A stretch of DNA of 64,000 bases from Oscillatoriaceae cyanobacterium Prado104. Its GTDB lineage: Bacteria > Cyanobacteriota > Cyanobacteriia > Cyanobacteriales > Microcoleaceae. The stretch spans positions 62,001-126,000 of the forward strand of contig JALOON010000046.1 in assembly GCA_025454405.1 (NCBI GenBank), given 5' to 3'. Position 1 is the first letter of the stretch. Each line of letters starts with the position of its first letter. A model generated the notes under the pieces. It was not told the DNA's origin and did not search any database. It was given only the letters and a program-made list of their open reading frames with translations. Positions 39,040 to 51,567 of this stretch are shown here, one piece after another. The translations under genes and the position numbers were made by a program.

Positions 39040-39405
39040 GATTTACAGGTCGCACAACAACAAAACAAGGTGAGGCAAAATCTCTGAGTAAAACTTGTTT
39101 TGGCAGCCATAAATTACGAGTACCTTTTTTACTTGCCCTTTTTATACCAAATTTTAGAGAAATGGTATTAAGAGCGACAAGTTAAGCCGACAGTCCGCAC
39201 TTGCAGCGCGAAGTCCCTAAAATGATTGAAAGATCTTAGCGGGCGATCGATAAATCTGCTGCGTTCGATCGCCACTTCACAATATATAATATCTATTCCT
39301 AATTCTTAATGACTGCGATGGCGCAAGCAGGTCGATTGCACCTTGACAGAGCTGGCAATCGACAGCTAGCTTGAGCTTGCGAATTTCTAAATTAAGGACA
39401 AGACT
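39040..39405. other. intergenic region upstream of the lipid/halogenase block
   Basis: Contains a small hairpin TATACCAAATTTTAGAGAAA with TGGTATTAAG (39142-39173), resembling the element ends at 17022-17126, and AT-rich ATATATAATAT at 39281. This should hold the promoter for the plus-strand half of the cluster. No gene is seen. Confidence 0.45.
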
Positions 39406-40557
39406 ATGCTCCGCAACAAGTTTTTGCTGACACTGACGATCGCGATTTCTTGGATGCTGGTCAAAATTAAATTTCTCCAGCGCCTCCTTCCCCGTAAAAT
39501 ATTGAATAAATTACCTCTTGGATGGACGGATGAGATGTACTCGACGGTCTTAAAATCTCGCGGTAAAAAGGTATATGTCGATATTCCTTGCCAACTCCAG
39601 CAACCGACATCCTATCAACCAAAAACCGCAGTCGATCCAGCCTATCAACTGACTGAAGCAGAGATTCAATTTTTCTATCAAAATGGCTATATCGGTCCCT
39701 TTACAATCGTCGCACCAGAGGTAGCTGAAGGGATTAAATCTCATTTGGTTGAGATGTTAGAAACAGAATCGACGATCTACCCTTATTCTCAAAATGCTTA
39801 CGTTATTGAAGCAAAAGATCGAGCAACTTCTGTCGATCGCATCAGAAGTAATTACGACACAAGTTATTTGGCAATGAATTATCGCGATCGCCATTTAGAT
39901 GATTCTCAATTGCTTGATTTGTTCAAACATCCAGCCCTCACAGAAAGATGCGCCCAGCTTTTAGGACCGGATCTGATGCTGTGGCGAACTCAATTTTTTC
40001 CAAAAGCGCCGAGTGAAGAAGGAACTCCCTTGCATCAAGCCAGTACCTACCTTTTAGATAACCTGAAAGAACCTGTAGTTTATCCGCCAAATCTCAATGA
40101 ATTATTTCAATTAACTTGCTGGATAGCTTTGACTGATGCCACGAAAGAAAACGGCTGTATGGTAGTAGTGAAAGGGACAAACAAGCAAATTGCGCCGCTG
40201 AAAATCTCAAAACCCTACGATACTCAAAAATCCGATGATGGTAGCAAGCGTTTTGGTACGGCAAAGATTGATGTTGACATCGAAGTTAATTCAGAAGATG
40301 TCATGCCGATTGAAATGAAAGCAGGACAATTTTTTATTTTTAGCGAACGATCGCTGCACGGTTCTTTAGCTAATCAAACAACAGAATGGCGTTGGGCTGT
40401 CAACGGACGAATTGTGCGACCGGATACCCGTCTTTACACCGAAAAAATGTTGAAAGAAGGACATATGTATAAAGTGGTGGGAGTGAAAGATATTTGTCTC
40501 GATCGCTGGAAAACTGTTCTGATTCGAGGAGAAGATCGCTTTGGCTACAATCAATAG
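39406..40557 (+). CDS. PhyH-superfamily Fe(II)/2-oxoglutarate enzyme with H-Q-A motif, probable halogenase
   Basis: The 383-residue protein starts with a membrane-like helix (about 5-25), then a PhyH/cupin fold from about 80. The region LMLWRTQFFPK (190-200), EEGTPLHQAST (204-214), CWIALTDATKENGCMVVVKG (238-257) and FFIFSERSLHGS (309-320) follows the chlorinating-enzyme (SyrB2-like) pattern. The metal site reads H210-Q211-A212 with distal H318, so the Asp/Glu of hydroxylases is Ala. In SyrB2-type enzymes this opens a chloride site on iron. R329 or R335 would bind 2-oxoglutarate. Free-carrier or lipid substrate is not known; the N-terminal helix suggests work at a membrane. First gene of a plus-strand run. 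Start ATG 39406. Confidence 0.82.
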   Translation: MLRNKFLLTLTIAISWMLVKIKFLQRLLPRKILNKLPLGWTDEMYSTVLKSRGKKVYVDIPCQLQQPTSYQPKTAVDPAYQLTEAEIQFFYQNGYIGPFTIVAPEVAEGIKSHLVEMLETESTIYPYSQNAYVIEAKDRATSVDRIRSNYDTSYLAMNYRDRHLDDSQLLDLFKHPALTERCAQLLGPDLMLWRTQFFPKAPSEEGTPLHQASTYLLDNLKEPVVYPPNLNELFQLTCWIALTDATKENGCMVVVKGTNKQIAPLKISKPYDTQKSDDGSKRFGTAKIDVDIEVNSEDVMPIEMKAGQFFIFSERSLHGSLANQTTEWRWAVNGRIVRPDTRLYTEKMLKEGHMYKVVGVKDICLDRWKTVLIRGEDRFGYNQ

Positions 40558-40897
40558 AGATCCGATCGAAAAGAAATTAGGCCAAGAGTGCTCGATCGCA
40601 CTCGTTAGGGCCCGGGGTGAAGCATTTGGACATAAAATCGATGGTTTGAGACATAATATTGTTTCCGGTAGTATCGGAACGATTTAACCGCAGAGGGCGC
40701 AGAGGGAGAGAAGAGAGAGATGAGTAATTCGGATGCTACCGGATTTAATATAAATTGTCGCCTAAGAGGGCGGGCACGGGGGCACCGCCCCTACCCCCTA
40801 CATTTATCGCAAAGTTGGAAATTCTTTTTACCAAATGTCTAATGACTGATGACTGATGACTAATGACTAATGACCAATGACTAATAACTAATAACTA
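40558..40897. repeat. intergenic repeats including AATGACT heptamer array
   Basis: Contains GAAGCATTTGGACATAAAAT (40611, as near 2690), CCGCAGAGGGCGCAGAGGGA (40689, again at 47523), GGGCGGGCACGGGGGCACCG (40769) and about nine AATGACT/GATGACT heptamers (40836-40893) ending at the next ATG. No gene is seen. Confidence 0.8.
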
Positions 40898-42184
40898 ATG
40901 ACTAATATTTCTAAAGCCGGACTTTTTGCGATCGCAATTTTGTATTTTATTACGCGGTGGTTGCTAAGTTGGAAAAACAGCAAATTGACAGAGGCGATCG
41001 GCGATCGTGAAGGTCAGTTAGAGGGTCCTCTAGTACATAGATTTATCGGGATTGAGAAAACCTTAAGCGGCAAAACAACCGATGTCACTTTCCACTACGT
41101 TCAATCTTTAAATACAGATGGCGAGTGCGTTGTCTTTTTGCATGGTTTCATGGATACCTGGAAATTGTGGCATCACAGTTTAGAATTTCTTGCCGATCGC
41201 TATCATGTAATTGCCTTTGATTTAAAAGGATGCGGTCAATCCTCAATGAATTATCCCCAGCGGCTATTTCCTGAGATTAACGATCCGGGTGGAGACTATT
41301 CGATCGCCCTGCAAGCTGAAGAAATTATGACAGCAATAACTGCTTTAGGAATCAAGAAATTTAATTTAGTAACTCTGGATTTGGGAACTATTATTGGCGA
41401 CCTTTTGGCAGGACAATATAGCGATGCGATTATCCGCTACATCCGATGCCAGCAACCCTTGGTCGGTCACTTTCGATCGTCCATCCCTCAAGGCCAATTC
41501 CTGCGCAGAAAACAAGGAGCAAAATTGCTAACAACTCTGCTAGAAAGCGATGCTAGCAGTTTGGTCAGAATTCTTTACGGTAAAACAGGATGGTCAGTGC
41601 TCGATCGCCAGATGAAACGCACTAAATACCAGATGTGCGATCGACTTTTAGACTCCGCCGTTAAAGAAGCCTCCCATCCATTTAAAACAGGTCCGAAGCA
41701 AGGCAAACTGGGTACTTTCACCTGTGCGTGGGCGGGATTGTACCAGCACAATCAAGATTACCAGCAGTTTATTTCTAATAACATAGAAGCATATAAACAA
41801 TATTCTTTTCCCGTCATTCTCTTGCAGGGAATTCACGATATTGCTATGCCGCGCGATCGCTTTGATGGAACGACAGGTATGGCTTTTAAATTCGTTCGCA
41901 ACGTAGGAAGGGAAAAAATATTGTCGAGGCCATTTTACGCCGACGGTCGGGGTTTGGGAGACGGCTACGAACCCTGGGGGGATTTAATTCCCAACTGCAC
42001 AAAACCACTACCAGTAGAGGCATTTTTCCCAAAATCGCCCTTTATTCAGCTTAAGTTTATGGATACGGGTCACTTTATCCCGATCGAAGCACCAGAGGAA
42101 TTTACTGCTGTATTAAATGAAGTTTTGAGCCAGCCATTAACAACTCGCAATCAATCGCAATCCCGTTATAGTGAAGGTATCTAG
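40898..42184 (+). CDS. alpha/beta hydrolase with aspartate nucleophile, membrane anchored
   Basis: The 428-residue protein has an N-terminal membrane helix (about 7-25) and an alpha/beta-hydrolase fold. The oxyanion H-G is H82-G83 in FLHGFMD, the nucleophile elbow is LVTLDLGT with D161, and the C-terminal histidine is in DTGHFIP, with an acid in QGIHDIAMP. An Asp nucleophile points to the epoxide hydrolase/haloalkane dehalogenase/OleB side of the family rather than an esterase. The Trp beside the nucleophile of dehalogenases is Leu here. Its stop lies 13 bp before the next start, so it is in an operon with the desaturase. Start ATG 40898. Confidence 0.85.
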   Translation: MTNISKAGLFAIAILYFITRWLLSWKNSKLTEAIGDREGQLEGPLVHRFIGIEKTLSGKTTDVTFHYVQSLNTDGECVVFLHGFMDTWKLWHHSLEFLADRYHVIAFDLKGCGQSSMNYPQRLFPEINDPGGDYSIALQAEEIMTAITALGIKKFNLVTLDLGTIIGDLLAGQYSDAIIRYIRCQQPLVGHFRSSIPQGQFLRRKQGAKLLTTLLESDASSLVRILYGKTGWSVLDRQMKRTKYQMCDRLLDSAVKEASHPFKTGPKQGKLGTFTCAWAGLYQHNQDYQQFISNNIEAYKQYSFPVILLQGIHDIAMPRDRFDGTTGMAFKFVRNVGREKILSRPFYADGRGLGDGYEPWGDLIPNCTKPLPVEAFFPKSPFIQLKFMDTGHFIPIEAPEEFTAVLNEVLSQPLTTRNQSQSRYSEGI

Positions 42185-42197
42185 GAGGAAAAAAAAG

Positions 42198-43172
42198 ATG
42201 ATATCGGAAGCAAATCAGCAGTCAGAAATCAGCGATAACTATGCAGGTTCATTATCTGTTAGTCTTCCTGTCGATCGAATGCGCGATCTCGCACAAATTA
42301 ATATTGCCAAAGCCGTCACCGCGATCGCCTCTGAGTGGCTGGTAATTATCATCGTAATTACCCTCTTCCATCAGTTTTGGCATCCGTTTTTATATCCGAT
42401 CGCAGTCATGTTTATTGGTGCTAGACAACACGCCTTAGCCGTTTTGCAGCACGATGCTGCTCACTACCGACTGTTTCCCAATAAAAGATGGAATGATGCA
42501 GTAGGTGAAGTGTTGTTAGCCTGGCCAATTTTGATTTCCAATCAATACTTTAGAGAATATCATTTCTTGCACCATCGCTATATCGGTACGGAAAAAGATG
42601 GCAATCGCATCCAATATGGAACCCACACTCCGACAGGCGAACCAACTCCAGCATGGCAGTTTCCCAAACAGAGAATAGCGCTAGTTTTTTGGTTTTTGCT
42701 GCGAATATCGGGAGTTGCTGGCGCAATCTATTTGGCGCGATCGATCCATCGCATTTTGACTCAAGGTTCAATTTCCTACAGACTCCTCAACCTCCTTTAT
42801 TATGCAGCAATTTTGGTAATTATTTTTCTTGTCAATGGCGGTCAATTGTTTCTAATCTACTGGATAATTCCTCTCTGTACCTGGTTTGCAGGGACTAACT
42901 TATTGCGGATTGCAGGAGAACATAGCGCTATCGATCGCCCGGACAATTTTTATCGGCTTACTCGCACCACTATTCCATCTTGGTTCGATCGAGTTTTTAT
43001 CGTACCTCGCAATATTAGCTATCATCTGGAACACCATATATATCCCCACGTTCCATTCTACAAATTGCCCGAACTGCACGATCGCTTGATGGCACAAGAA
43101 AGTTACTGTCAAAACTCCCAAATAACGCGAGGTTATGGGCAAGTTTTGCGGGAATTAACGGGCGATCGATAA
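42198..43172 (+). CDS. membrane fatty-acid desaturase/hydroxylase family protein
   Basis: The 324-residue protein has the three histidine boxes of the di-iron family: HDAAH (85-89), HFLHH (122-126) and HLEHH (about 284-288), plus four or more hydrophobic segments (about 45-75, 165-185, 200-245). It should use O2 to desaturate or hydroxylate an acyl chain in the membrane. The start is ATG 42198, chosen because TAGGAGGAAAAAAAAG gives a strong ribosome-binding site; the frame is open 9 codons further upstream into the previous gene. Operon with the alpha/beta hydrolase. Confidence 0.9.
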   Translation: MISEANQQSEISDNYAGSLSVSLPVDRMRDLAQINIAKAVTAIASEWLVIIIVITLFHQFWHPFLYPIAVMFIGARQHALAVLQHDAAHYRLFPNKRWNDAVGEVLLAWPILISNQYFREYHFLHHRYIGTEKDGNRIQYGTHTPTGEPTPAWQFPKQRIALVFWFLLRISGVAGAIYLARSIHRILTQGSISYRLLNLLYYAAILVIIFLVNGGQLFLIYWIIPLCTWFAGTNLLRIAGEHSAIDRPDNFYRLTRTTIPSWFDRVFIVPRNISYHLEHHIYPHVPFYKLPELHDRLMAQESYCQNSQITRGYGQVLRELTGDR

Positions 43173-43178
43173 TATAAC

Positions 43179-43462
43179 GTAGGTTGGGTTGAGGAACGAA
43201 ACCCAACAATTAAATATCGTGGATTCAATCAGGAAAGTTTATTGGTTTGAAGGATGTCAGTCAACCCAACCTACAAAAATGCAAGTTATGTCAAATCCGG
43301 TTGCATCGGAATGATATAATTTTTGATGATGTCATTGCGAACAGTAAGTGCGATCGCACGATGTAATTCCGATGAAACAAGAAATGACATTATTTATTTC
43401 TCATTCCTAAGGGTGGTGTTGGGCGGAGTGAAACGGAGGGTTCGTTCCTCAACCCAACCTAC
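43179..43462. mobile_element. MITE-like element with 22-bp perfect inverted ends inside the cluster
   Basis: GTAGGTTGGGTTGAGGAACG plus AA (43179-43200) is exactly reverse-complementary to 43441-43462. The 284-bp unit also has an internal partial copy (CAACCCAACCTACA at 43262). It fills almost the whole gap between the desaturase and the flavoprotein genes. Confidence 0.75.
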
Positions 43463-43498
43463 AATAAATGCTTAAGTAATAATTGATTTTTACATATT

Positions 43499-45235
43499 AT
43501 GCAAAATCACCCTGAGACTCAAAGTTCTAGCTCAATTATCGACTGCGATCGATCGGATATAATTGATGCCGATATTATCGTCCTTGGATCGAGCATTTCT
43601 GGGCTGATGGCAGCAACTTACCTCAAACAAAAGTTGCCAGAATTAGAAGTTATTGTTGTTGGTCCTAAACCTGAAGCAGAAAAGCGGGCTTACGTTGGCG
43701 AATCCCTAACTGAAATCAGCATCCATTTCTTCTGGGAAATTGGCTTCAAAGACTATCTCGATCGCACTCACGACCTCAAAAACGGGTTAACCTTTTACCA
43801 CAAGCTTCGTATTGACGATCCAGCAGACTATCGCTACTCCGTTCACGCCCCCGGACAAAGCCTTCATTTCCTCTCGCGCCAGCTAAACCGCCCGATTTTC
43901 GATCGCGATCTTCGCCAACACGCCGCTCAATCTGGCGTCAAGTTTATGATAGGTAAAGCTAAAGATTTTGTAGTAGGTAAAGGTGGCGATCGGCATCAAT
44001 TATCTGTCAAAACATCAGAAAATAAACTAACTCATCTTTCCTCTAGATGGATTGTGGATGCTAGCGGCCAAAAGCGATTTATTGGCAAAAAAGTCACCAC
44101 CTACACCTGTCCCGAAACAGGACAGCGCAGCGCTTTTTGGTTCCGATTGGCAAACTTCGAGCCCTTTCTTCCCCAGTTAGAAATTTCCCAACGCCGCCCC
44201 TCCGAATACAATCTTTGGCAATCCACGCATCACTTTATGGGTCACGGTAATTGGATTTGGTGCATTCCTCTAAAAACGATCGAACATGACAGATTAATTA
44301 GCGTGGGAATTAGCTATCGACCGGATTTATATTCGCATTCAATGCGCAGTATGGAAGATTTTTTAGCTGCTGTAGATTGCGAGCATCCAGCGGTGGCGCA
44401 GATGGTTCGCAGCGGTGAAGTATTAGATACTCATAACTATCACAATTATCTTTACAGCGCCGATGAAATTTATTCAGAAACTGGCTGGTTTTTAATTGGA
44501 AATAGCGCTCGAATGGTAGACCCTCTTTACAGTACTGGTCTGGCAATGACTGCCATTCAAATTCAACAAGTTACTGAAATTATTCAAGGAAAAATTGCTA
44601 GCAACATTACTCCTCAAGATATTGCCAATCTTTCATTTGTTTGGCGGCAAATTGCGATGAGACGGCAAATAGACATTACCGATCAGTATGCGACTATGCA
44701 CGATCCTTTTGTCGCTCACTTGCGGCGCTACTGGAATTTAAATGGTTGGTGGAATGCCATTTTACCGCTATGGTGGAGCGGATTTTTGACAGATCCGCGC
44801 GGTGCTAATATTCTTTGCAAACTATTGGAAGGAGACGATCGCGGCAGTAAATCGGCTGCGCAGTTGTTCGAGGCGGTTTCTGCTAAATTGGGCAATGTAG
44901 AACAATCTGATTTCGATCGCACTATAGATTTCGATCGACTGATAAATCGGCGGTTCGATCGATCGATTTCTACAATTCCATTGCAATTAGCTCGATATTT
45001 TCAATGGCGCTTGCAGATTCGTTGGCGTTTGTTGAGTCTGGGTGGATGGCAATTGCTTCCGAGTCAGTTGCGATCGATCCTGCAAGAATTTGTTCGGATG
45101 TTGCTCAGCAAATATCTATTTGGCTATCTCAATCGAGATGCTTTGCGAGAGATTAAATTATCTCTCGATTTTGATTTTGCGGGTGCAGTTCGACAAGACA
45201 AGGAAGGATATTTATCGCATAAGAATGAGGGATGA
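43499..45235 (+). CDS. FAD-dependent halogenase-like flavoprotein
   Basis: The 578-residue protein begins its FAD fold with DIIVLGSSISGLMAATYL (Rossmann glycine pattern GSSISG, one glycine replaced). It has VGESLTE near 67 and the flavin-dependent-halogenase motif W252-I-W254-C-I-P257 in GNWIWCIP. It also has a candidate catalytic lysine K94 in LKNGLTF, aligned with the FKxGxxF lysine of tryptophan halogenases, and the late FAD motif GNSARMVDPLYSTG. The long C-terminal part (about 400-578) is helical and Trp/Arg-rich, and may contact a membrane or carrier. It could chlorinate an activated carbon, or act as a related oxygenase. A separate flavin reductase would be needed. Start ATG 43499. Confidence 0.78.
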   Translation: MQNHPETQSSSSIIDCDRSDIIDADIIVLGSSISGLMAATYLKQKLPELEVIVVGPKPEAEKRAYVGESLTEISIHFFWEIGFKDYLDRTHDLKNGLTFYHKLRIDDPADYRYSVHAPGQSLHFLSRQLNRPIFDRDLRQHAAQSGVKFMIGKAKDFVVGKGGDRHQLSVKTSENKLTHLSSRWIVDASGQKRFIGKKVTTYTCPETGQRSAFWFRLANFEPFLPQLEISQRRPSEYNLWQSTHHFMGHGNWIWCIPLKTIEHDRLISVGISYRPDLYSHSMRSMEDFLAAVDCEHPAVAQMVRSGEVLDTHNYHNYLYSADEIYSETGWFLIGNSARMVDPLYSTGLAMTAIQIQQVTEIIQGKIASNITPQDIANLSFVWRQIAMRRQIDITDQYATMHDPFVAHLRRYWNLNGWWNAILPLWWSGFLTDPRGANILCKLLEGDDRGSKSAAQLFEAVSAKLGNVEQSDFDRTIDFDRLINRRFDRSISTIPLQLARYFQWRLQIRWRLLSLGGWQLLPSQLRSILQEFVRMLLSKYLFGYLNRDALREIKLSLDFDFAGAVRQDKEGYLSHKNEG

Positions 45236-45271
45236 TACCAGATCCGGGTACGATCTCCCCCTTTATTTCTT

Positions 45272-45297
45272 AAACCCGCGCAGGCGGGTTTTGTTTG
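45272..45297. terminator. hairpin with T-rich tail between convergent cluster halves
   Basis: AAACCCGC and GCGGGTTT pair around GCAG, followed by TTGTTTG. The plus-strand run ends 37 bp upstream and the minus-strand run ends at 45430, so it could serve plus-strand and perhaps both directions. Confidence 0.65.
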
Positions 45298-45429
45298 TAT
45301 AGAAGCGATTTCAATCGCCGAGTCTTATCGGGGATATCTAACCCGGATTTGGGATGAGATCGATCGGGGAACCGCAGATCGAGGCAGACAAACACAGATA
45401 AACGCAGATAAATGCGCTTGATTTTTGGC

Positions 45430-46563
45430 TTATTTTTGAAGGGGATAGTTGAAATTTGAAAAAGCAAATGCCCAACGCTGTTCTACTCGCTTGCTGTCTT
45501 CTACTGAAAGATTAAAGTTATTTTTCTTGTAGGATTTTTGCGAATCAATATAGGCTTTAAAAGCAGGTTCTGCCCGATCGAATCCTTCTAAATCGAGTGT
45601 TTTATAAATCCGAGATAACTCTGCGATCGGATCTCGTTCTAGGTCTTCAAAACGAATCTCTACTAAATGCCCGTCGCCGATCGAGTCTCGATCGAGCAAA
45701 AATCGTTGCATCATTTGTTCGTAGAGAGATAGGACAGTTTCATCCGCATTTGCTGAGTCGATAACCTGCAAAGTCGTAAGTTTTGATAAAGTGTGATGCA
45801 GATTCTGGGAAGATGCAAATATATCGTAAGGGGAACGATAAATATGAATGAATTTTGCATCGGGAAACATTTCTAGCAACAAGCGAACGCGGGCTGTATT
45901 CACGGGATTTTTCAAAATCAGCGGCTTATTGTCTGCATGAATGGTGGCAATTTGCAGCAGTTTGTAATACTTCTGTTTAAATTCGTCGATCGCCCGTTGG
46001 GGAGCACCCTCCATTAATACATACTTTTTAAACAAATACAATGTTTTGTGCGGAAACAAAAAATTAATATAGAAGGCATGAGGCGTCATTTTTGCTAGGG
46101 GAAATTCTTCTTCCTGGGGCGCATCTACAGGCCAAATCATATTGTCCATAGGGCGCTTGAGAGGCACGATTTTTGATAGTAATGGCTTCAACCAACTTTG
46201 ACCTACTAGGGAACAGTCGGGCACCATTGCTTGATACATTGACAGATAGCCGAAGGTTTTATCCTGCGTCATTAAATTGTGGAGGTGCGTGGTGCCGCTG
46301 CGCCAATAACCAATAATAAATACAGGAGCACGATCGATCTCAATCTTAGCAATTTGTTGGCTGCAGGCGATTGTTTCCCAGAGGCGTAATGGCAGCGTTA
46401 TTAAGCTGGAGATAATTACAAGTAGCAAACGCAATCCGTAACGCGGATGTATGCCAATGGAGAAATGGATCAGGCGCACGATATTTGACAGTCGGGTAAA
46501 TCCAATTAAACCCAACTGATAGCCAAAGTCTTTAGGGAGATTGAATGATTTTTCTGATGTCAT
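45430..46563 (-). CDS. PAPS-dependent sulfotransferase, membrane associated
   Basis: The 377-residue protein has the 5'-phosphosulfate loop GYWRSGTTHLHNLM (85-98) and the 3'-phosphate motif IYRSPYDIFASSQ (241-253), both intact. A hydrophobic stretch (about 44-60) before the fold indicates membrane contact. The enzyme would move sulfate from PAPS to an alcohol on a lipid or polyketide. Last gene of the minus-strand run (KASIII, AlkB, SDR, sulfotransferase). Start ATG 46563. Confidence 0.88.
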   Translation of the reverse strand: MTSEKSFNLPKDFGYQLGLIGFTRLSNIVRLIHFSIGIHPRYGLRLLLVIISSLITLPLRLWETIACSQQIAKIEIDRAPVFIIGYWRSGTTHLHNLMTQDKTFGYLSMYQAMVPDCSLVGQSWLKPLLSKIVPLKRPMDNMIWPVDAPQEEEFPLAKMTPHAFYINFLFPHKTLYLFKKYVLMEGAPQRAIDEFKQKYYKLLQIATIHADNKPLILKNPVNTARVRLLLEMFPDAKFIHIYRSPYDIFASSQNLHHTLSKLTTLQVIDSANADETVLSLYEQMMQRFLLDRDSIGDGHLVEIRFEDLERDPIAELSRIYKTLDLEGFDRAEPAFKAYIDSQKSYKKNNFNLSVEDSKRVEQRWAFAFSNFNYPLQK

Positions 46564-46608
46564 GTTTTTGAGATGTTATATTATCTTCAGTTTATTGAAT
46601 GTTATTCC

Positions 46609-46670
46609 GGTAGGGGCGGGTTCACCAACAATATTTGCCAAAAACAGACTGTCTCGAAAACCCGCCCCGG
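46609..46670. repeat. GGGGCGGGTT / AACCCGCCCC element
   Basis: Copy of the 2505-2594 family with middle CACCAACAATATTTGCCAAA. A near-identical copy lies 1 kb away at 47600-47662, so the SDR gene is flanked by direct repeats of about 62 bp. Confidence 0.85.
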
Positions 46671-46678
46671 TATATGTA

Positions 46679-47470
46679 TTATGCGCGATCCGAACGCAAG
46701 CTCAAAGGAGGTCGAGGAAACCATTTTTCGATCGCATGGTTAAAGATATGTTCCTTGATTCGATCGGGCATAATTCCAAGCAGTCGCACAAACTGATATT
46801 GCCAAAAAGGAAAGCAATACAGGCGCTGTTTTTGCTCGATCGCTTTGACAATTTGAGGAATCGCCCGATCGAGAGTCATGCACCAATGGCGGGGAATTTG
46901 ATGCTTCACAGTCATCTCTGTCTCGATAAAACCAGGACAAATAGTAGTAACAGAAATACCGTGAGGTTTTAAAGTCCAATAAAAACCTTCTAGTTGGTAA
47001 TTTAAGGCAGCTTTGGAAGCGCAATAAGTGCTCATTCTCGGTATTGAACCGATCGCTGCTAGACTAGAAATTCCCACAATCTGACCTCGACCTCGTTTTA
47101 ACATAGTTTCGACGATGGGAACTAGGGTGTATGTACTGCCGATCGCATTGGTCAACATTACTTCATTAAAGCATTCTAGATCGAGATTTGGCTCTAATTG
47201 TTGGTAGGTAACTCCGGCATTGATAATTGCTAGATCGATCGCGCCTAATTCTTGTTCTACTTTGGCGATGGTTTGAGCTATAATTTGTTTGTCAGTTATA
47301 TCAGCACAATAGGTTCGCAAAAGTCCGCGATCGGATGCTAAAGATTGATAAAGATCTGCTAAATTTGCTTCTCGACGGGCTACTGCGGCAACACTGCAAC
47401 CGCGCGCTAGATAGTGCAGGACTAATCTACGACCAATTCCTGAAGATCCGCCAGTAATAAAAACAATCAT
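46679..47470 (-). CDS. short-chain dehydrogenase/reductase
   Basis: The 263-residue SDR has GGSSGIG (7-13), NAG (84-86), catalytic Ser in GISSLA (about 135-136) and Y149-x-x-x-K153, all intact. The last 60 residues are more hydrophobic than in soluble SDRs (YCFPFWQYQFVRLLGI), suggesting membrane binding as in lipid 3-ketoreductases. It would reduce a keto group made by the ketosynthase or oxidise an alcohol. Start ATG 47470. Confidence 0.93.
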   Translation of the reverse strand: MIVFITGGSSGIGRRLVLHYLARGCSVAAVARREANLADLYQSLASDRGLLRTYCADITDKQIIAQTIAKVEQELGAIDLAIINAGVTYQQLEPNLDLECFNEVMLTNAIGSTYTLVPIVETMLKRGRGQIVGISSLAAIGSIPRMSTYCASKAALNYQLEGFYWTLKPHGISVTTICPGFIETEMTVKHQIPRHWCMTLDRAIPQIVKAIEQKQRLYCFPFWQYQFVRLLGIMPDRIKEHIFNHAIEKWFPRPPLSLRSDRA

Positions 47471-47599
47471 ATTTTATGTTTTTATCTATTCTACAAAACC
47501 AAAGAAATCTGTTTTTTTGAACCGCAGAGGGCGCAGAGGGCGCAGAGTAAGAGAAGAGAGAGATAAATTAGCTGGCATCCAGTCGATTAGCCCTCATAT

Positions 47600-47662
47600 G
47601 GTAGGGGCGGGTTCACCAACAATATTTGCCAATAATTTACAATCTTAAAAACCCGCCCTGGC
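47600..47662. repeat. GGGGCGGGTT / AACCCGCCCT element
   Basis: Direct-repeat partner of 46609-46670, sharing GGTTCACCAACAATATTTGC. The neighbouring 47523-47570 holds GCAGAGGGCGCAGAGGGCGC words like those at 40689. Confidence 0.85.
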
Positions 47663-47669
47663 CGGGATG

Positions 47670-48800
47670 TTAATCTTCTAAATAAGGATGGACGACTTTT
47701 TGGAAAAGAGGCGGTACTAATGAAAGGAAATACATAATTGAGTAGTTGTAAGGATAATGCGGGGCGCGATCGTCATATCTCAAGGCATGATAAGGACGGT
47801 GAGGATAAAGATGGTGATCGCTATGTCTTAATAGATTCAAGAGGGCTAAGTCATGAATGAATAACCCTGAAGACCAGGCATGATGCGCTTTTACTGGCTC
47901 GTATTCTCCCGATTCATCGAGGTTGCGAGTCATTCCGTAATGTTGTAAATAGTTAGTCCACTCCAGTTTCATAATCGCAATTAGACAGTGTAAAACGAAG
48001 AAAATGCCTCCACTCCAGCCGCCCAAACTAATAGCAAGACACAGCCAAAATAGAGTTATTCCGTACCAGAGAAGCAGTTCGTTATGCCAGAAAGATTGAC
48101 CGGATTTAGTCAAGCGATCGCGCTCGCAAGCAATGGATTCGCAAACATTTCCTTTAAAACTTTGCCACCAAAAGCTATAGATACTTTGTCCGCGCTTAGC
48201 AGTAGCAAAATCGAGAGGTGTGCCGACATAACGGTGATGAATTTTGAGGTGGACAATTTTGAATGTGCCGAAGCCAACGGTTGAGAGAAGCAGGCCGCCA
48301 ATTAGGCGATCGAATTTCTGAGGGCGGTGAATTAATTCGTGACCGATATTGATAGCGCACATCCCGCTAAAGATGCCAGTTGATAATAAATAGCCCGTGC
48401 TTCCCCAAAGATTTAGAATGCCAGAATTCCAATAAGTAATGGCTGCATAAAGCATCGTGATTTGTGCTAAGATACTGAGTAATGGCAGCACGCGGTAGTA
48501 AGTTTGCCATCCCGCCCTAGAGGATAAATTTGTCGGTACGGGTGCGATCGCGTAGGGAAAAATTGTTTCAACTACAGGAACTACAATATAGGCGATCGCC
48601 AGCGGCAGAAAGGCAACAATATTAGCAATATTGGCATCATTACTTGCAACGCCCAGCCATGCTGTCAAGATCGGGATTGCAGGGATGCCAAAAGCCAGGA
48701 GAAAGCCCACACTTCCTACTAGGAAATCGATCGATCGATATCGATCGTTAGCTTCATCTCGATTTAAGTAGTTACTCTCGTTCAATTTTCTCAGCCTCAA
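47670..48800 (-). CDS. AlkB-type alkane 1-monooxygenase/fatty-acid hydroxylase
   Basis: The product is about 376 residues with several membrane segments and the AlkB histidine pattern: HELIH (about 154-158), HLKIHHRYVGT (184-194), NYLQHYGM and LLRHSDHHLYPHRPY. The last three match the diagnostic AlkB boxes. The enzyme inserts oxygen at an unactivated C-H of a chain and needs rubredoxin or ferredoxin. No ATG exists near the start; candidates are TTG 48854, 48800 and 48785. TTG 48800 is chosen because it overlaps the ketosynthase stop as TTGA, implying translational coupling; TTG 48785 has GAGG upstream. Confidence 0.88.
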   Translation of the reverse strand: MRLRKLNESNYLNRDEANDRYRSIDFLVGSVGFLLAFGIPAIPILTAWLGVASNDANIANIVAFLPLAIAYIVVPVVETIFPYAIAPVPTNLSSRAGWQTYYRVLPLLSILAQITMLYAAITYWNSGILNLWGSTGYLLSTGIFSGMCAINIGHELIHRPQKFDRLIGGLLLSTVGFGTFKIVHLKIHHRYVGTPLDFATAKRGQSIYSFWWQSFKGNVCESIACERDRLTKSGQSFWHNELLLWYGITLFWLCLAISLGGWSGGIFFVLHCLIAIMKLEWTNYLQHYGMTRNLDESGEYEPVKAHHAWSSGLFIHDLALLNLLRHSDHHLYPHRPYHALRYDDRAPHYPYNYSIMYFLSLVPPLFQKVVHPYLED

Positions 48801-49834
48801 TATGTTAACTGTACGACGGAAGCTACCAGACCGGCACTCACGGGAACCAAGCAAATAGGGTCGCCTCTTTTGAGTTTACCTTCTGTTTCTGCCAGTCGGA
48901 TTCCCAACGGAACGCTAGCTGAAACTACATTGCCAAAACGGGGATATACTTCCAAATAAATTTTTTCAACGGGAATACCTCTTTTCGGCAAAAACTCTTC
49001 ATAAACAGTTTTTGATGGCGCGTGGGGAAAATACCAAACTTTACTAGCAGGAGTATCGATCGCGCTATCTATCAGTTCGCCCAAGCATTTTTCGCCCTCG
49101 CGAAACAAATCTTGACCGTAAGAGACAAATCGATCGATTCCATTTTTGCCAATCCGTTCGCTAGGTGCGACGAAGCTTTCATAACCATTGAGAGGAATCG
49201 TACACAAATCGGCAAATTCCGATCGAGAATTATAATCAAATTGCCATTCATCGTCACTGGGAAGTAGAATAGTTGCGGTTGCAGCCTCGCCGATGGTATA
49301 CATGGGAAAGGTATATTCTAGGGTTCTAAAATCGCGAATTTCCCAGTTGTCATGCAAACCAACATGAAATTCTCCATTGATAATGGCGATCGCTTTAAAA
49401 CTTCCTGCTTTGAGCATTAAGTAAGCAATTTGTAATGCCCTCGTCCAACTCATGCAGGCATCGGTAATATCGAAACAGTTGACTGTTTTCATGCCTCTAG
49501 CTTGGGCATAAAAATAAGCATTGGCAGGTTCGAGAAAACCTTTACCAACGCCGCAATAAATCAACAGATCGATGTCCTGGGCGGATATATTGGCTCGATC
49601 GATCGCCTCATCCATTGCCCCTAAAATCAAATCTTCTCCTCTTTCTCCTGCCTGAATATCGCGCCAATAACGGGTTTGCGCTCCTGTTCGATTTAATAGT
49701 TTTTCAACTAACTTCAAATAAGGAGTTTTTTTCAAGGCCGATCGTTCGGGATTGCATTTAGAGATATGTTCGATGAGAGCGTCGTTGGTGAGTTTTCTCG
49801 ATGGTATGCGGTAAGCGATCGAAGCAATTTTCAT
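48797..49834 (-). CDS. ketoacyl-ACP synthase III (KASIII/FabH-like)
   Basis: The 345-residue thiolase-fold enzyme has the Cys-His-Asn triad intact: C127 in ITDACMSW, H271 in YFPHAPSK and N302 in RFGNVVSA. The usual N-H pair of housekeeping FabH is diverged (no HQAN), as in secondary-metabolism KASIII and OleA-like proteins. It would start or condense acyl chains from acyl-CoA or acyl-ACP. First gene of the minus-strand run and overlaps the AlkB start. Start ATG 49834. Confidence 0.9.
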   Translation of the reverse strand: MKIASIAYRIPSRKLTNDALIEHISKCNPERSALKKTPYLKLVEKLLNRTGAQTRYWRDIQAGERGEDLILGAMDEAIDRANISAQDIDLLIYCGVGKGFLEPANAYFYAQARGMKTVNCFDITDACMSWTRALQIAYLMLKAGSFKAIAIINGEFHVGLHDNWEIRDFRTLEYTFPMYTIGEAATATILLPSDDEWQFDYNSRSEFADLCTIPLNGYESFVAPSERIGKNGIDRFVSYGQDLFREGEKCLGELIDSAIDTPASKVWYFPHAPSKTVYEEFLPKRGIPVEKIYLEVYPRFGNVVSASVPLGIRLAETEGKLKRGDPICLVPVSAGLVASVVQLTY

Positions 49835-50517
49835 TCAATTTTCACCAGATATGAAAAACATTTTTGAACTTATCAAATATTTTCTTACTTTTTACTTGAC
49901 TGGATCGGCCACAACTACAGTTGAACTTGAATAATACCCACGGGAGGTTTATTGTAGAAGAAACACGAATTATTTGGGACTGTGCCAAAACAGAGATATT
50001 GCACCATTATTAACAATCCTGTAGGGGCGGGTTCGCCAACAGCTTTCAACGCAGCAGATATGTTAAATAAACCCGCCCCCACCCACGAAAAACTCCCAAT
50101 TGACTGCCGATGCAAGATGTCAGTTAAAACACGCTTGTCTCCATTATATCTTGTGCGGGCAGTGCGATCGATTTTGATACAATTGCTTACATAATGTCAT
50201 TGCAAGTGAAACCAAGTGAAACAAAGCAATCATCAACATTCAGATTTTTTTGTTCCGCGCAATGAGAGACAATAACGATATTAAGCGTTTGGGTTCAGAA
50301 ACCGGGTTTCTTTCTAGATATCTCGCTACCCACCCAGATTTTTCGGAGAAACCCGGTTTCTTTTCCTAGCCTAGGGACTCAAACAAAAACGGGGTTGATT
50401 CCCATATCGCGTTTAAATTATTCATGCAACTTACAAGAATGGTAATCTAGTAAAAGTACAATTTAAGTGCGATATATCTGATATAATCAAATGGCAAGTC
50501 TATCAAATCTATATTAG
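49835..50517. repeat. gene-free region with repeats
   Basis: Contains a GGGGCGGGTT/AACCCGCCCC element (50005-50104), two inverted words of the CAGAAACCGGGTTTCTTTCT / GAGAAACCCGGTTTCTTTT family (50291, 50349) and AT-rich DNA. A minus-strand frame at 49915-50115 merely translates the element. It marks the right border of the lipid/halogenase block. Confidence 0.7.
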
Positions 50518-51567
50518 ATGTACATACCTGTTTCTTTCGACGGCGGTATTCAAAGGAACGAAGCCATAGAAATCAAAGTCAGAAACTTTAAAGAGTTAAA
50601 CTTACAGGAAAGACATATTGAAGAGTTCTTGCGCAAAAACATTAATTTGCTCTTTGGGGATGACGAAACTCTTCTAGTTGTCGGTCAACAAGTTCGCAAT
50701 GCAAGTAACGGGATTAGCGACCTGACTGCCATTGATGCAGATGGAAATATTGTGCTTATCGAGATTAAACGCGACGTACAAGACATCAAGGCAAGAAAAG
50801 AACCTTTTGAATTTCAAGCTATCAGGTATGCCGCAAGTTATGCCAAAATTTCGACACCTGAATCTCTTGTAGAGTCGGTCTATAGCTCGTATATTGAGAT
50901 ACACAAAGATGAATATGAATTAGGCGATTTGACTCCTGGTGAAAAAGCGAGACGAGAGTTAAATAAATTCTTGTCAAGTAATGACGCACTTAAAACCTTT
51001 AATAAAAAACAAAGAATCATACTTATAGCCTCATCCTTTGACGAGCAAACCCTCTCTGCCGTTGCTTGGTTGATTTCAAATGGGGTGGATGTTATCTGTC
51101 TTAATATCACTCCTGTTTTTATAGGAGAGCAAGGTTTTTTGAGTATTGAAAAAAATTTACCTCCGGCACAATTGGATGATTTTTACGTGGGTTTAGCTGG
51201 ATTAGGTTCTACAATTAAGGGAGACATTATATCCAATGCTTCTGCCATTAAGAGAACTTTTATACCTCGAATGGACAAGCTGTTTGAGTGGCAAATAATC
51301 AAAACAGGGGACTGCCTGGAAATTAAAACATTTGATGGCTCTGAAGCTATAATAATTGACCATAGATTTGTCAGATTTAATGGAGAAGAAATTTCTTATA
51401 ATATTTGGGGAAAGAAAGTTACTGGGTGGTCTTCTATAAATATTTATGAATGGGCAGTGCTTAGTTCAATCAAGAAGACTTTACATGAACTAAGGGCAGA
51501 AAAAATGGCAGAGTTGGAAGCCCAAGCCAGTCAAAGTGAAAAATTTCACAACGAAGATGTTGGATAA
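50518..51567 (+). CDS. NucS/DUF91-like PD-(D/E)XK nuclease-domain protein
   Basis: The 349-residue protein has an N-terminal nuclease domain: HIEEFLRKNINLLFGDD, then the metal-site Asp in GISDLTAIDADGNIV and E-x-K in LIEIKRD, as in NucS-type endonucleases. A central helical region and a C-terminal beta domain (about 245-320) followed by a Lys/Glu/Ala-rich tail are unrecognised. The DNA is AT-richer than neighbouring genes and the gene stands alone between repeat clusters, suggesting transfer. It may act in DNA repair or defence; not assignable. Start ATG 50518 without a clear ribosome-binding site. Confidence 0.75.
   Translation: MYIPVSFDGGIQRNEAIEIKVRNFKELNLQERHIEEFLRKNINLLFGDDETLLVVGQQVRNASNGISDLTAIDADGNIVLIEIKRDVQDIKARKEPFEFQAIRYAASYAKISTPESLVESVYSSYIEIHKDEYELGDLTPGEKARRELNKFLSSNDALKTFNKKQRIILIASSFDEQTLSAVAWLISNGVDVICLNITPVFIGEQGFLSIEKNLPPAQLDDFYVGLAGLGSTIKGDIISNASAIKRTFIPRMDKLFEWQIIKTGDCLEIKTFDGSEAIIIDHRFVRFNGEEISYNIWGKKVTGWSSINIYEWAVLSSIKKTLHELRAEKMAELEAQASQSEKFHNEDVG

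Follow-up and report, generated by a model that had tools for sequence, protein, structure and literature searches.

Long-chain lipids bearing both sulfate and aliphatic chlorine, the chlorosulfolipids, are known from chrysophyte algae and mussels (PMC13413282), and our searches of the PMC literature found no described biosynthetic genes for them. Chlorinated lipids from a cyanobacterial gene cluster have been reported in Nostoc punctiforme, where the nostochlorosides were found by halide depletion; the report describes the ngl cluster as being about 36 kb, as having been sought via homologues of the cylindrocyclophane enzymes and as giving chlorinated glycolipids (PMC10849952). Here we describe a block of eight genes at positions 39406-49834 of a 64,000-nucleotide stretch (the window) of the 8.5 Mb genome (G000) of Oscillatoriaceae cyanobacterium Prado104, taken from contig JALOON010000046.1. 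We moderately favor the view that this block directs the synthesis, at the membrane, of a long-chain lipid that is both sulfated and chlorinated, with two fatty chains being joined head to head.

The predicted product is, like the algal chlorosulfolipids of Ochromonas danica and Poterioochromonas malhamensis (the danicalipin/mytilipin kind), long-chain, hydroxyl-sulfated and aliphatically chlorinated; it differs from them in that its skeleton may be joined head to head, and the block is known from genes alone. In contrast to the ngl cluster, the block holds a Fe(II)/2-oxoglutarate (Fe/2OG) enzyme with an HQA triad together with a flavin adenine dinucleotide (FAD) halogenase-like enzyme, a sulfotransferase and an AlkB enzyme. 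The Fe/2OG enzyme shares the HxA triad and the fold of SyrB2 and CytC3, but differs in having about 79 residues ahead of the part that aligns with SyrB2, and the tested open reading frames (ORFs) showed no carrier protein. The sole Fe/2OG halogenase that one report names as known for fatty acids is HctB (PMC12871659). The β-ketoacyl synthase III (KASIII, or KS3) of the block shares the catalytic Glu-Pro and Cys positions of OleA from the OleABCD hydrocarbon/beta-lactone pathway, whereas the tested ORFs hold no OleC-type ligase (oleBCD were not searched for elsewhere in the genome), the short-chain dehydrogenase/reductase (SDR) is of the adh_short kind and the KASIII scores below the PRK09258 cutoff. 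The AlkB enzyme has the His motifs of the alkane 1-monooxygenases (8sbb, 8f6t) and aligns with them over about 300 residues; unlike them, it lies in a biosynthetic neighborhood. The kinds of enzyme are known, and their combination and the conserved block appear to be new: the first-pass annotation of this DNA knew of no described cyanobacterial cluster of such composition, and we likewise found no paper describing the block in the PMC literature, where searches on PCC 6802, cyanobacterial chlorosulfolipids and flavin halogenases of lipids led nowhere. If the proposed reading is true, a compact bacterial block in a named PCC strain makes a chlorosulfolipid-like pathway directly testable, and the block offers an Fe/2OG enzyme as candidate halogenase of free lipids, as against HctB, which acts on fatty acyl chains.

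Conservation and distribution of the block

The eight ORFs are open from start to stop, with four on the plus strand (39406-45235) and four on the minus strand (45430-49834), and are consecutive and convergent as the first-pass annotation had described; the enzyme classes that it had named are borne out by Pfam matches above the gathering score for every ORF (PhyH, Abhydrolase_1, FA_desaturase twice, the second of these AlkB-like, Trp_halogenase, Sulfotransfer_3, adh_short and ACP_syn_III). The features, in window coordinates, are as follows.

39241-49992, no strand: conserved block, made up of the eight genes and about 165 bp of flank on each side (blastn against locus L003)
39406-40557, plus strand: Fe(II)/2-oxoglutarate halogenase-type enzyme of the PhyH family (here PhyH), with an HQA triad and an N-terminal helix at residues 5-20 (PF05721, E 3.4e-26)
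40033-40041, plus strand: HQA, PhyH residues 210-212, with Ala at the position of the iron-binding Asp/Glu of hydroxylases (SyrB2 alignment)
40898-42184, plus strand: alpha/beta hydrolase (ABH), Asp nucleophile D161, epoxide-hydrolase-like (PF00561)
42171-43172, plus strand: membrane di-iron desaturase/hydroxylase (DES), three His boxes (PF00487, E 6.5e-35)
43499-45235, plus strand: FAD halogenase-like enzyme, WIWCIP at residues 252-257, K94, DPLYSTG (PF04820, E 5.7e-11)
45430-46563, minus strand: sulfotransferase (ST) of the 3'-phosphoadenosine 5'-phosphosulfate (PAPS) type, hydrophobic segment at residues 43-62 (PF13469, E 1.1e-35)
46679-47470, minus strand: classical SDR, Rossmann motif GGSSGIG, Y149xxxK153 (PF00106, E 2.3e-42)
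47670-48854, minus strand: AlkB-type terminal hydroxylase, motifs HELIH, IHHRY, QHYG and RHSDHH (8sbb and 8f6t matches)
48797-49834, minus strand: KASIII with OleA-type catalytic Glu (E102-P103), Cys127, His271 and Asn302 (OleA alignment)

Ten ORFs, these eight and one on each side, were tested for carrier-protein, nonribosomal peptide synthetase and polyketide synthase (PKS) domains, and none was found except that the SDR also matches the ketoreductase model, in agreement with what had been noted before.

The nearest named relatives of the block proteins belong to Microcoleus and 'Richelia' cyanobacterial metagenome-assembled genomes (MAGs). Conservation of the gene set, which the first-pass annotation had proposed as a check, was found in two further genomes. 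All eight genes recur, in the order and orientation of the window, in L003 (JAAUPF010000062.1, 'Richelia sp. CSU_2_1', G659), with protein identities of 84-95% (95, 89, 84, 87, 90, 88, 89 and 89%). At the DNA level, seven long blastn matches, interrupted at the spacers, span 39241-49992, and only short repeat-like matches lie outside. The right flanks differ, since L003 has ndh genes, as read from translations, where the window has PsbQ, PetA and PetC; the left edge is less well tested because L003 extends only about 1 kb past it. Pseudanabaena sp. PCC 6802 (G724, locus L088) is a culture-collection strain whose sulfotransferase is identical over 379/379 residues to the protein of that name, and it has seven of the eight genes at 56-68% identity on one strand, in the order KS3-AlkB-SDR-ST-DES2-ABH-DES-FAD, where DES2, a second desaturase-like gene, takes the slot of the missing Fe/2OG gene. 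Since all eight genes recur in L003 and seven in PCC 6802, and the DNA matches end at the block edges, the eight genes are maintained together as one block and are more than chance neighbors.

The distribution of the block was followed with the KASIII, which was searched in three overlapping samples and matched in 5 of 386 phylum genomes (E 1e-40), 9 of 388 order genomes (E 1e-40) and 4 of 388 class genomes (E 1e-90); other genomes of the window's own genus, among those listed in the order sample, gave no match at E 1e-40. KASIIIs of at least 66% identity were present in six genomes, the own one included: G000, G659 (L003), G533 (L041), G296 (L010), G724 (L088) and G678 (L089). AlkB and SDR follow the KASIII in all six and the sulfotransferase comes next in five, the contig of G678 stopping within the SDR, before any sulfotransferase position. 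The order is KS3-AlkB-SDR-ST-PhyH-DES2 in G533 (Chroococcidiopsidaceae CP_BM_ER_R8_30, assigned by identity of P0004 and P0247), with DES2 cut at the contig end, and KS3-AlkB-SDR-ST-DES2-ABH in G296 (Thermosynechococcaceae MS004, assigned by identity of P0275), with ABH cut at the contig end and an FAD gene likewise truncated where a separate contig ends. A pattern scan of genome contigs for the FAD protein confirmed three loci, L003 among them, out of 13 matched stretches; the genome-wide searches for FAD and ABH did not extend to G678, and the search for DES covered the retrieved stretches only. DES2 (L010:5542-6954 and L088:7622-8980) is 452-470 residues long with desaturase-like His clusters, as judged by eye, the L010 copy having no Pfam match at 1e-6; it sits between the sulfotransferase and the hydrolase, the slot before the hydrolase being held by PhyH in the window, and it was not found in G000, G659 or G678 (E 1e-10). 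The constant core of the block is KASIII-AlkB-SDR-sulfotransferase and its variable part comprises the halogenation and desaturation genes (PhyH, DES2, ABH, DES, FAD); the two halogenases are not always together across genomes. The motifs of AlkB, desaturase and SDR are kept across the clusters wherever those genes occur.

By protein identity the genomes pair as G000-G659, G724-G296 and G533-G678, and do so alike for KS3, AlkB and SDR; with the sulfotransferase the first two pairings could be compared, and both hold. G724 and G296 are listed in different families and are 84-90% identical over the cluster genes, which suggests that the cluster may have been transferred between lineages, mis-binning of the G296 MAG being the alternative.

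The two halogenase-like enzymes

The PhyH enzyme aligns with SyrB2 over residues 80-347 with HQA falling on HQA, and the HQA of CytC3 aligns likewise. Replacement of HxD/E by HxG/A at the iron site is described as the Fe/2OG halogenase motif (PMC12871659). The HQA that the first-pass annotation had read is present, and it is retained in the PhyH copies of L003 and L041; among the 120 best of 496 homologues the triads are HQA in 81, HQT in 10, HQS in 10, HQE in 6, HQG in 5, HQN in 5, HQD in 1, HQV in 1 and gapped in 1. The AlphaFold2 (AF2) model of the enzyme (predicted local distance difference test score, pLDDT, 92.7) was compared with the PDB, where ranks 1-8 are taken by SyrB2 and CytC3 chains (E 1.2e-24 to 1.5e-18), followed by hydroxylases and other Fe/2OG enzymes. 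Together, triad and modeled fold support the assignment as a putative Fe/2OG halogenase well, and chlorination is predicted. Ahead of the SyrB2-aligned part lie about 79 residues that begin with a helix in the model, and a crude hydrophobicity scan marks residues 6-24, as it also marks segments in AlkB, in DES and in ST (43-62); membrane anchoring of PhyH is likely.

The FAD enzyme matches PltA, Bmp2 and CmlS by sequence. It has the motif WIWCIP, and the underlying WxWxIP is present in at least 117 of the 120 best of 1088 relatives, own protein included (W 118, W 119, I 120, P 120). K94 aligns with a Lys of Bmp2 and is Lys in 118/118 relatives with a letter there; we take this position to be that of the active-site Lys of flavin halogenases. 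In fold comparisons of its AF2 model (pLDDT 92.0) flavin halogenases rank highest, with hydroxylases close behind. A predicted FAD halogenase is supported by WxWxIP, the aligned lysine and the fold, while its flavin and Fx.Px.SxG motifs are atypical. The earlier proposal of two putative halogenases is well supported for the Fe/2OG enzyme by triad and fold, and is supported for the FAD enzyme by these three features, but there the GxSxxG flavin motif and the replaced Phe speak against it.

Proposed pathway and alternatives

In OleA, a glutamate of one subunit is reported to act as general base in the active site of its partner and to be unique to OleA homologues in the superfamily (PMC7064751). 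This Glu117 is described as essential for condensation, and a proline is next to it in all but two of the OleA proteins of that study (PMC7064751). In the KASIII of the block, Cys127 aligns with OleA Cys143 and E102-P103 with E117-P (numbering derived from chain offsets). The Glu-Pro is present in 6/6 cluster KASIIIs and missing from the FabH-like paralogue of the same genome; it is also present in cousins of 37-42% identity from other clusters. This feature had not been remarked in the first-pass annotation.

The AlkB protein has two solved matches at E 0.1, both alkane 1-monooxygenases (8sbb, 1.4e-43; 8f6t, 6.3e-41), and its His residues are kept in six genomes with RHSDHH/RHGEHH/RHGDHH variation; its start codon is uncertain because the listed TTG start lies inside the neighboring KASIII gene. 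The sulfotransferase scores 124.3 bits against the Sulfotransfer_3 cutoff of 27, and its intact RSGTT 5'-phosphosulfate loop, which upholds the earlier call of a sulfotransferase gene, is accompanied by an RSPYD motif; some of its relatives are annotated by JGI as 'omega-hydroxy-beta-dihydromenaquinone-9 sulfotransferase', in name only. The three His boxes of DES (HDAAH, HFLHH, HLEHH) are identical in L003 and L088, and DES has no solved relative at E 0.1. The best solved match of ABH is the Cif-like epoxide hydrolase 7jqx (E 3.5e-13); its motifs LDLG, GIHD and TGHF are common to L003 and L088, D161/D314/H392 is the likely catalytic triad, with D161 as the Asp nucleophile that the earlier annotation had named without position, and its N-terminus reaches a hydrophobicity of 1.88 over 17 residues, which the crude scan missed. 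A tryptophan follows the aspartate nucleophile in haloalkane dehalogenases, and likewise in OleB. The context in ABH is D161-L162-G163, and both identities were rejected, there being no tryptophan after the nucleophile.

Based on the chemistry of these families, we infer the following order of steps. The KASIII would condense a pair of fatty-acyl thioesters head to head, as OleA does, Glu102 serving as the base and Cys127 as the nucleophile; the resulting beta-keto acid would either go on or lose CO2 to give an internal ketone. The SDR would reduce the ketone to a mid-chain alcohol, the AlkB enzyme would hydroxylate a chain end, and the sulfotransferase would place a sulfate on one of these hydroxyls. 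The desaturase might then add a double bond or a hydroxyl, the alkene could undergo HOCl chemistry through the FAD enzyme, and the hydrolase, with its Asp nucleophile, would open an epoxide or related intermediate. Finally, in the window genome, the HQA Fe/2OG enzyme, probably membrane-anchored, would chlorinate an unactivated C-H. The core (joining, reduction, omega-hydroxylation, sulfation) can be read as leading to a long-chain alcohol or bolaamphiphile that is sulfated, which the variable part would decorate by chlorination and oxidation. A membrane lipid seems a likelier substrate than a carrier-bound one, given that several of the proteins appear to be membrane-bound and that no carrier protein turned up in the tested ORFs. 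That the block as a whole constitutes the first bacterial chlorosulfolipid pathway, a portable cassette in which an OleA-type joining yields a secondary alcohol that is omega-hydroxylated, sulfated and chlorinated by two mechanistically unrelated halogenases, one of them membrane-anchored and working on a free lipid, is a tentative and rather doubtful proposition.

Several observations weigh against the proposed pathway, besides the product being predicted from genes alone. The KASIII scores 91.1 bits against PRK09258, an NCBIfam model that we take to cover OleA, where the cutoff is 285, and nearly as much (87.3) against FabH PRK09352; its best solved match is FabH 2ebd with 68.1 bits, as compared with 54.1 bits for OleA. 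An OleC-type acyl-CoA ligase or AMP-ligase had no match in the ten window ORFs and none was seen on reading the L088 translations, and neither an extended-SDR OleD nor a flavin reductase is the main family of any of the eight proteins. The PhyH enzyme reaches 156.5 bits against TIGR01762 (chlorinating enzyme; cutoff 226.3) and is therefore not filed as a member, and not every PhyH relative need halogenate, because some are HQE, HQD, HQT, HQS, HQN or HQV. Its membrane anchoring is not firm, because N-terminal hydrophobicity varies among 103 full-length homologues (over the first 60 residues, a mean of 1.6 is reached by 32 and 1.2 by 74), and the scan further picks out FAD 21-39 and KASIII 325-345, taken as buried core. 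The flavin motif of the FAD enzyme is GSSISG (GxSxxG) and not GxGxxG, with Ser at the third position in 114/120 relatives and gaps in 5, hence the name 'halogenase-like'; in place of the tunnel motif Fx.Px.SxG it has MVDPLYSTG, where P, S and G are kept and M stands for F (A, T or S in most relatives). With tryptophan missing after the ABH nucleophile, there is no indication of dehalogenase function. Searches at E 1e-10 found no PhyH in G724, G678 or G296, three genomes that bear the core, and in G533, where the contig ends in the cluster, the best FAD match is 26% and ABH has no match (E 1e-20). The chlorosulfolipid reading of the first-pass annotation is upheld in part, by gene set, motifs and conservation; the halogenases on which it leaned do not always co-occur (G724, G296, G678, G533).

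The first step is where the nearest alternative departs. A decarboxylative KASIII using malonyl-acyl carrier protein could start or extend one chain, giving a halogenated hydroxy fatty acid or alcohol sulfate of one chain, whose skeleton would be closer to that of the algal chlorosulfolipids, and FabH being the best solved relative, the near equality of the PRK09352 and PRK09258 scores and a Cys-His-Asn triad as in FabH all fit it; against it stands the Glu-Pro at the OleA E117 position in every cluster KASIII and not in the FabH-like paralogue. We hold this to be a real possibility, of lower probability than head-to-head joining, and the confidences overlap, as the two differ in step 1 only. 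The product might also be a sulfated, oxygenated lipid without a final halogen, either because halogenation is cryptic, a C-Cl bond being made and then displaced, or because the FAD enzyme is an epoxidase or monooxygenase whose epoxide the hydrolase opens. The Cif-like relatives of the hydrolase, the atypical flavin motif, the absence of the Fe/2OG halogenase from three core-bearing genomes and the hydroxylases that closely trail the halogenases in fold comparison point this way, and cryptic halogenation is known in cyanobacteria, for example with the nostochlorosides (PMC10849952); we consider such a product unlikely. That halogenation/desaturation and KASIII-AlkB-SDR-sulfotransferase are two unrelated adjoining operons would agree with the opposite strands of the halves in the window and with the variability of the halogenation half, but both halves form a single same-strand run in PCC 6802, L003 holds both within the same limits, and PhyH directly follows the sulfotransferase in G533, making this very improbable.

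Related loci, flanks and repeats

The closest relatives of PhyH outside the block are in L042 (59%; identical over 399/399 residues to a Pleurocapsa sp. PCC 7319 protein) and L043 (53-55%; G491). The two clusters are alike in having genes for a type I PKS-thioesterase, type III PKS, P450, flavin-containing monooxygenase (FMO), ICMT methyltransferase, TauE, sulfotransferase and MFS protein, and may encode a further pathway to a halogenated, sulfated lipid or polyketide. The loci with a sulfotransferase-like match are L041, which holds the block, and, of the 17 others retrieved with PhyH relatives, two: L042 and L043. L044-L058 hold no further block genes except for 26% DES/SDR matches in L045, L049 and L055; L054 and L057 have second PhyH copies. 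Plasmid searches with the PhyH and FAD proteins gave nothing above 60% identity. An FAD relative of 37-39% lies in L005 (Anaerolineae) without other block genes. Fe/2OG and FAD relatives also occur on equally sized contigs (P0117/P0142 and P0119/P0205) named Nannocystaceae and Deltaproteobacteria, and the halogenase pair may be together outside cyanobacteria as well. Eight contig sizes of at least 3 kb (and one shorter) were common to the relative lists, whereas 500 jittered sets shared 1.2 on average and 5 at most; the comparison covered 358 of 360 proteins, two having no contig, and equal size suggests, and does not prove, the same contig.

Sulfotransferase relatives were listed from ten genomes, and those of G005 (43%) and G095 (36%), whose regions were examined, were rejected, no other block gene being nearby at E 1e-6. 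A distant KASIII group of 39-42% identity (G306, G199, G328, G648, G594, G393) was likewise rejected as block members, as was a KASIII (37%) on a Paraburkholderia caribensis plasmid, which has no related neighbors in the annotation. Among the fetched loci of the distant group, which do not include that of G648, L011, L012, L013 and L082 hold no other block gene and L083 a weak SDR match. In L011:7156-18229, a 38-42% KASIII with Glu-Pro lies beside an AMP-ligase/carrier protein (like a fatty acyl-AMP ligase, labeled by eye), a Rieske oxygenase, DUF3419 and an FMO, with a UbiB-kinase/aminotransferase fusion near it; L082:1745-12637 resembles this locus, as read from translations only.

In the window, the genes to the left of the block encode CpeT/CpcT, a thylakoid-formation protein, ComFB and an M23 peptidase, and those to the right PsbQ, cytochrome f (PetA) and the Rieske protein PetC. 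The ORF at 50518-51567, which adjoins the block, has weak, below-cutoff matches to the SduA_C and NucS nuclease models. Repeats of 62 nt lie between or beside block genes at 46609-46670, 47600-47661 and 50020-50081; a tandem array with a 14-nt period is at 40820-40910 and a 32-nt inverted repeat pair at 43172-43203/43438-43469. Some short stretches have further matches at other places in the window and in L003.

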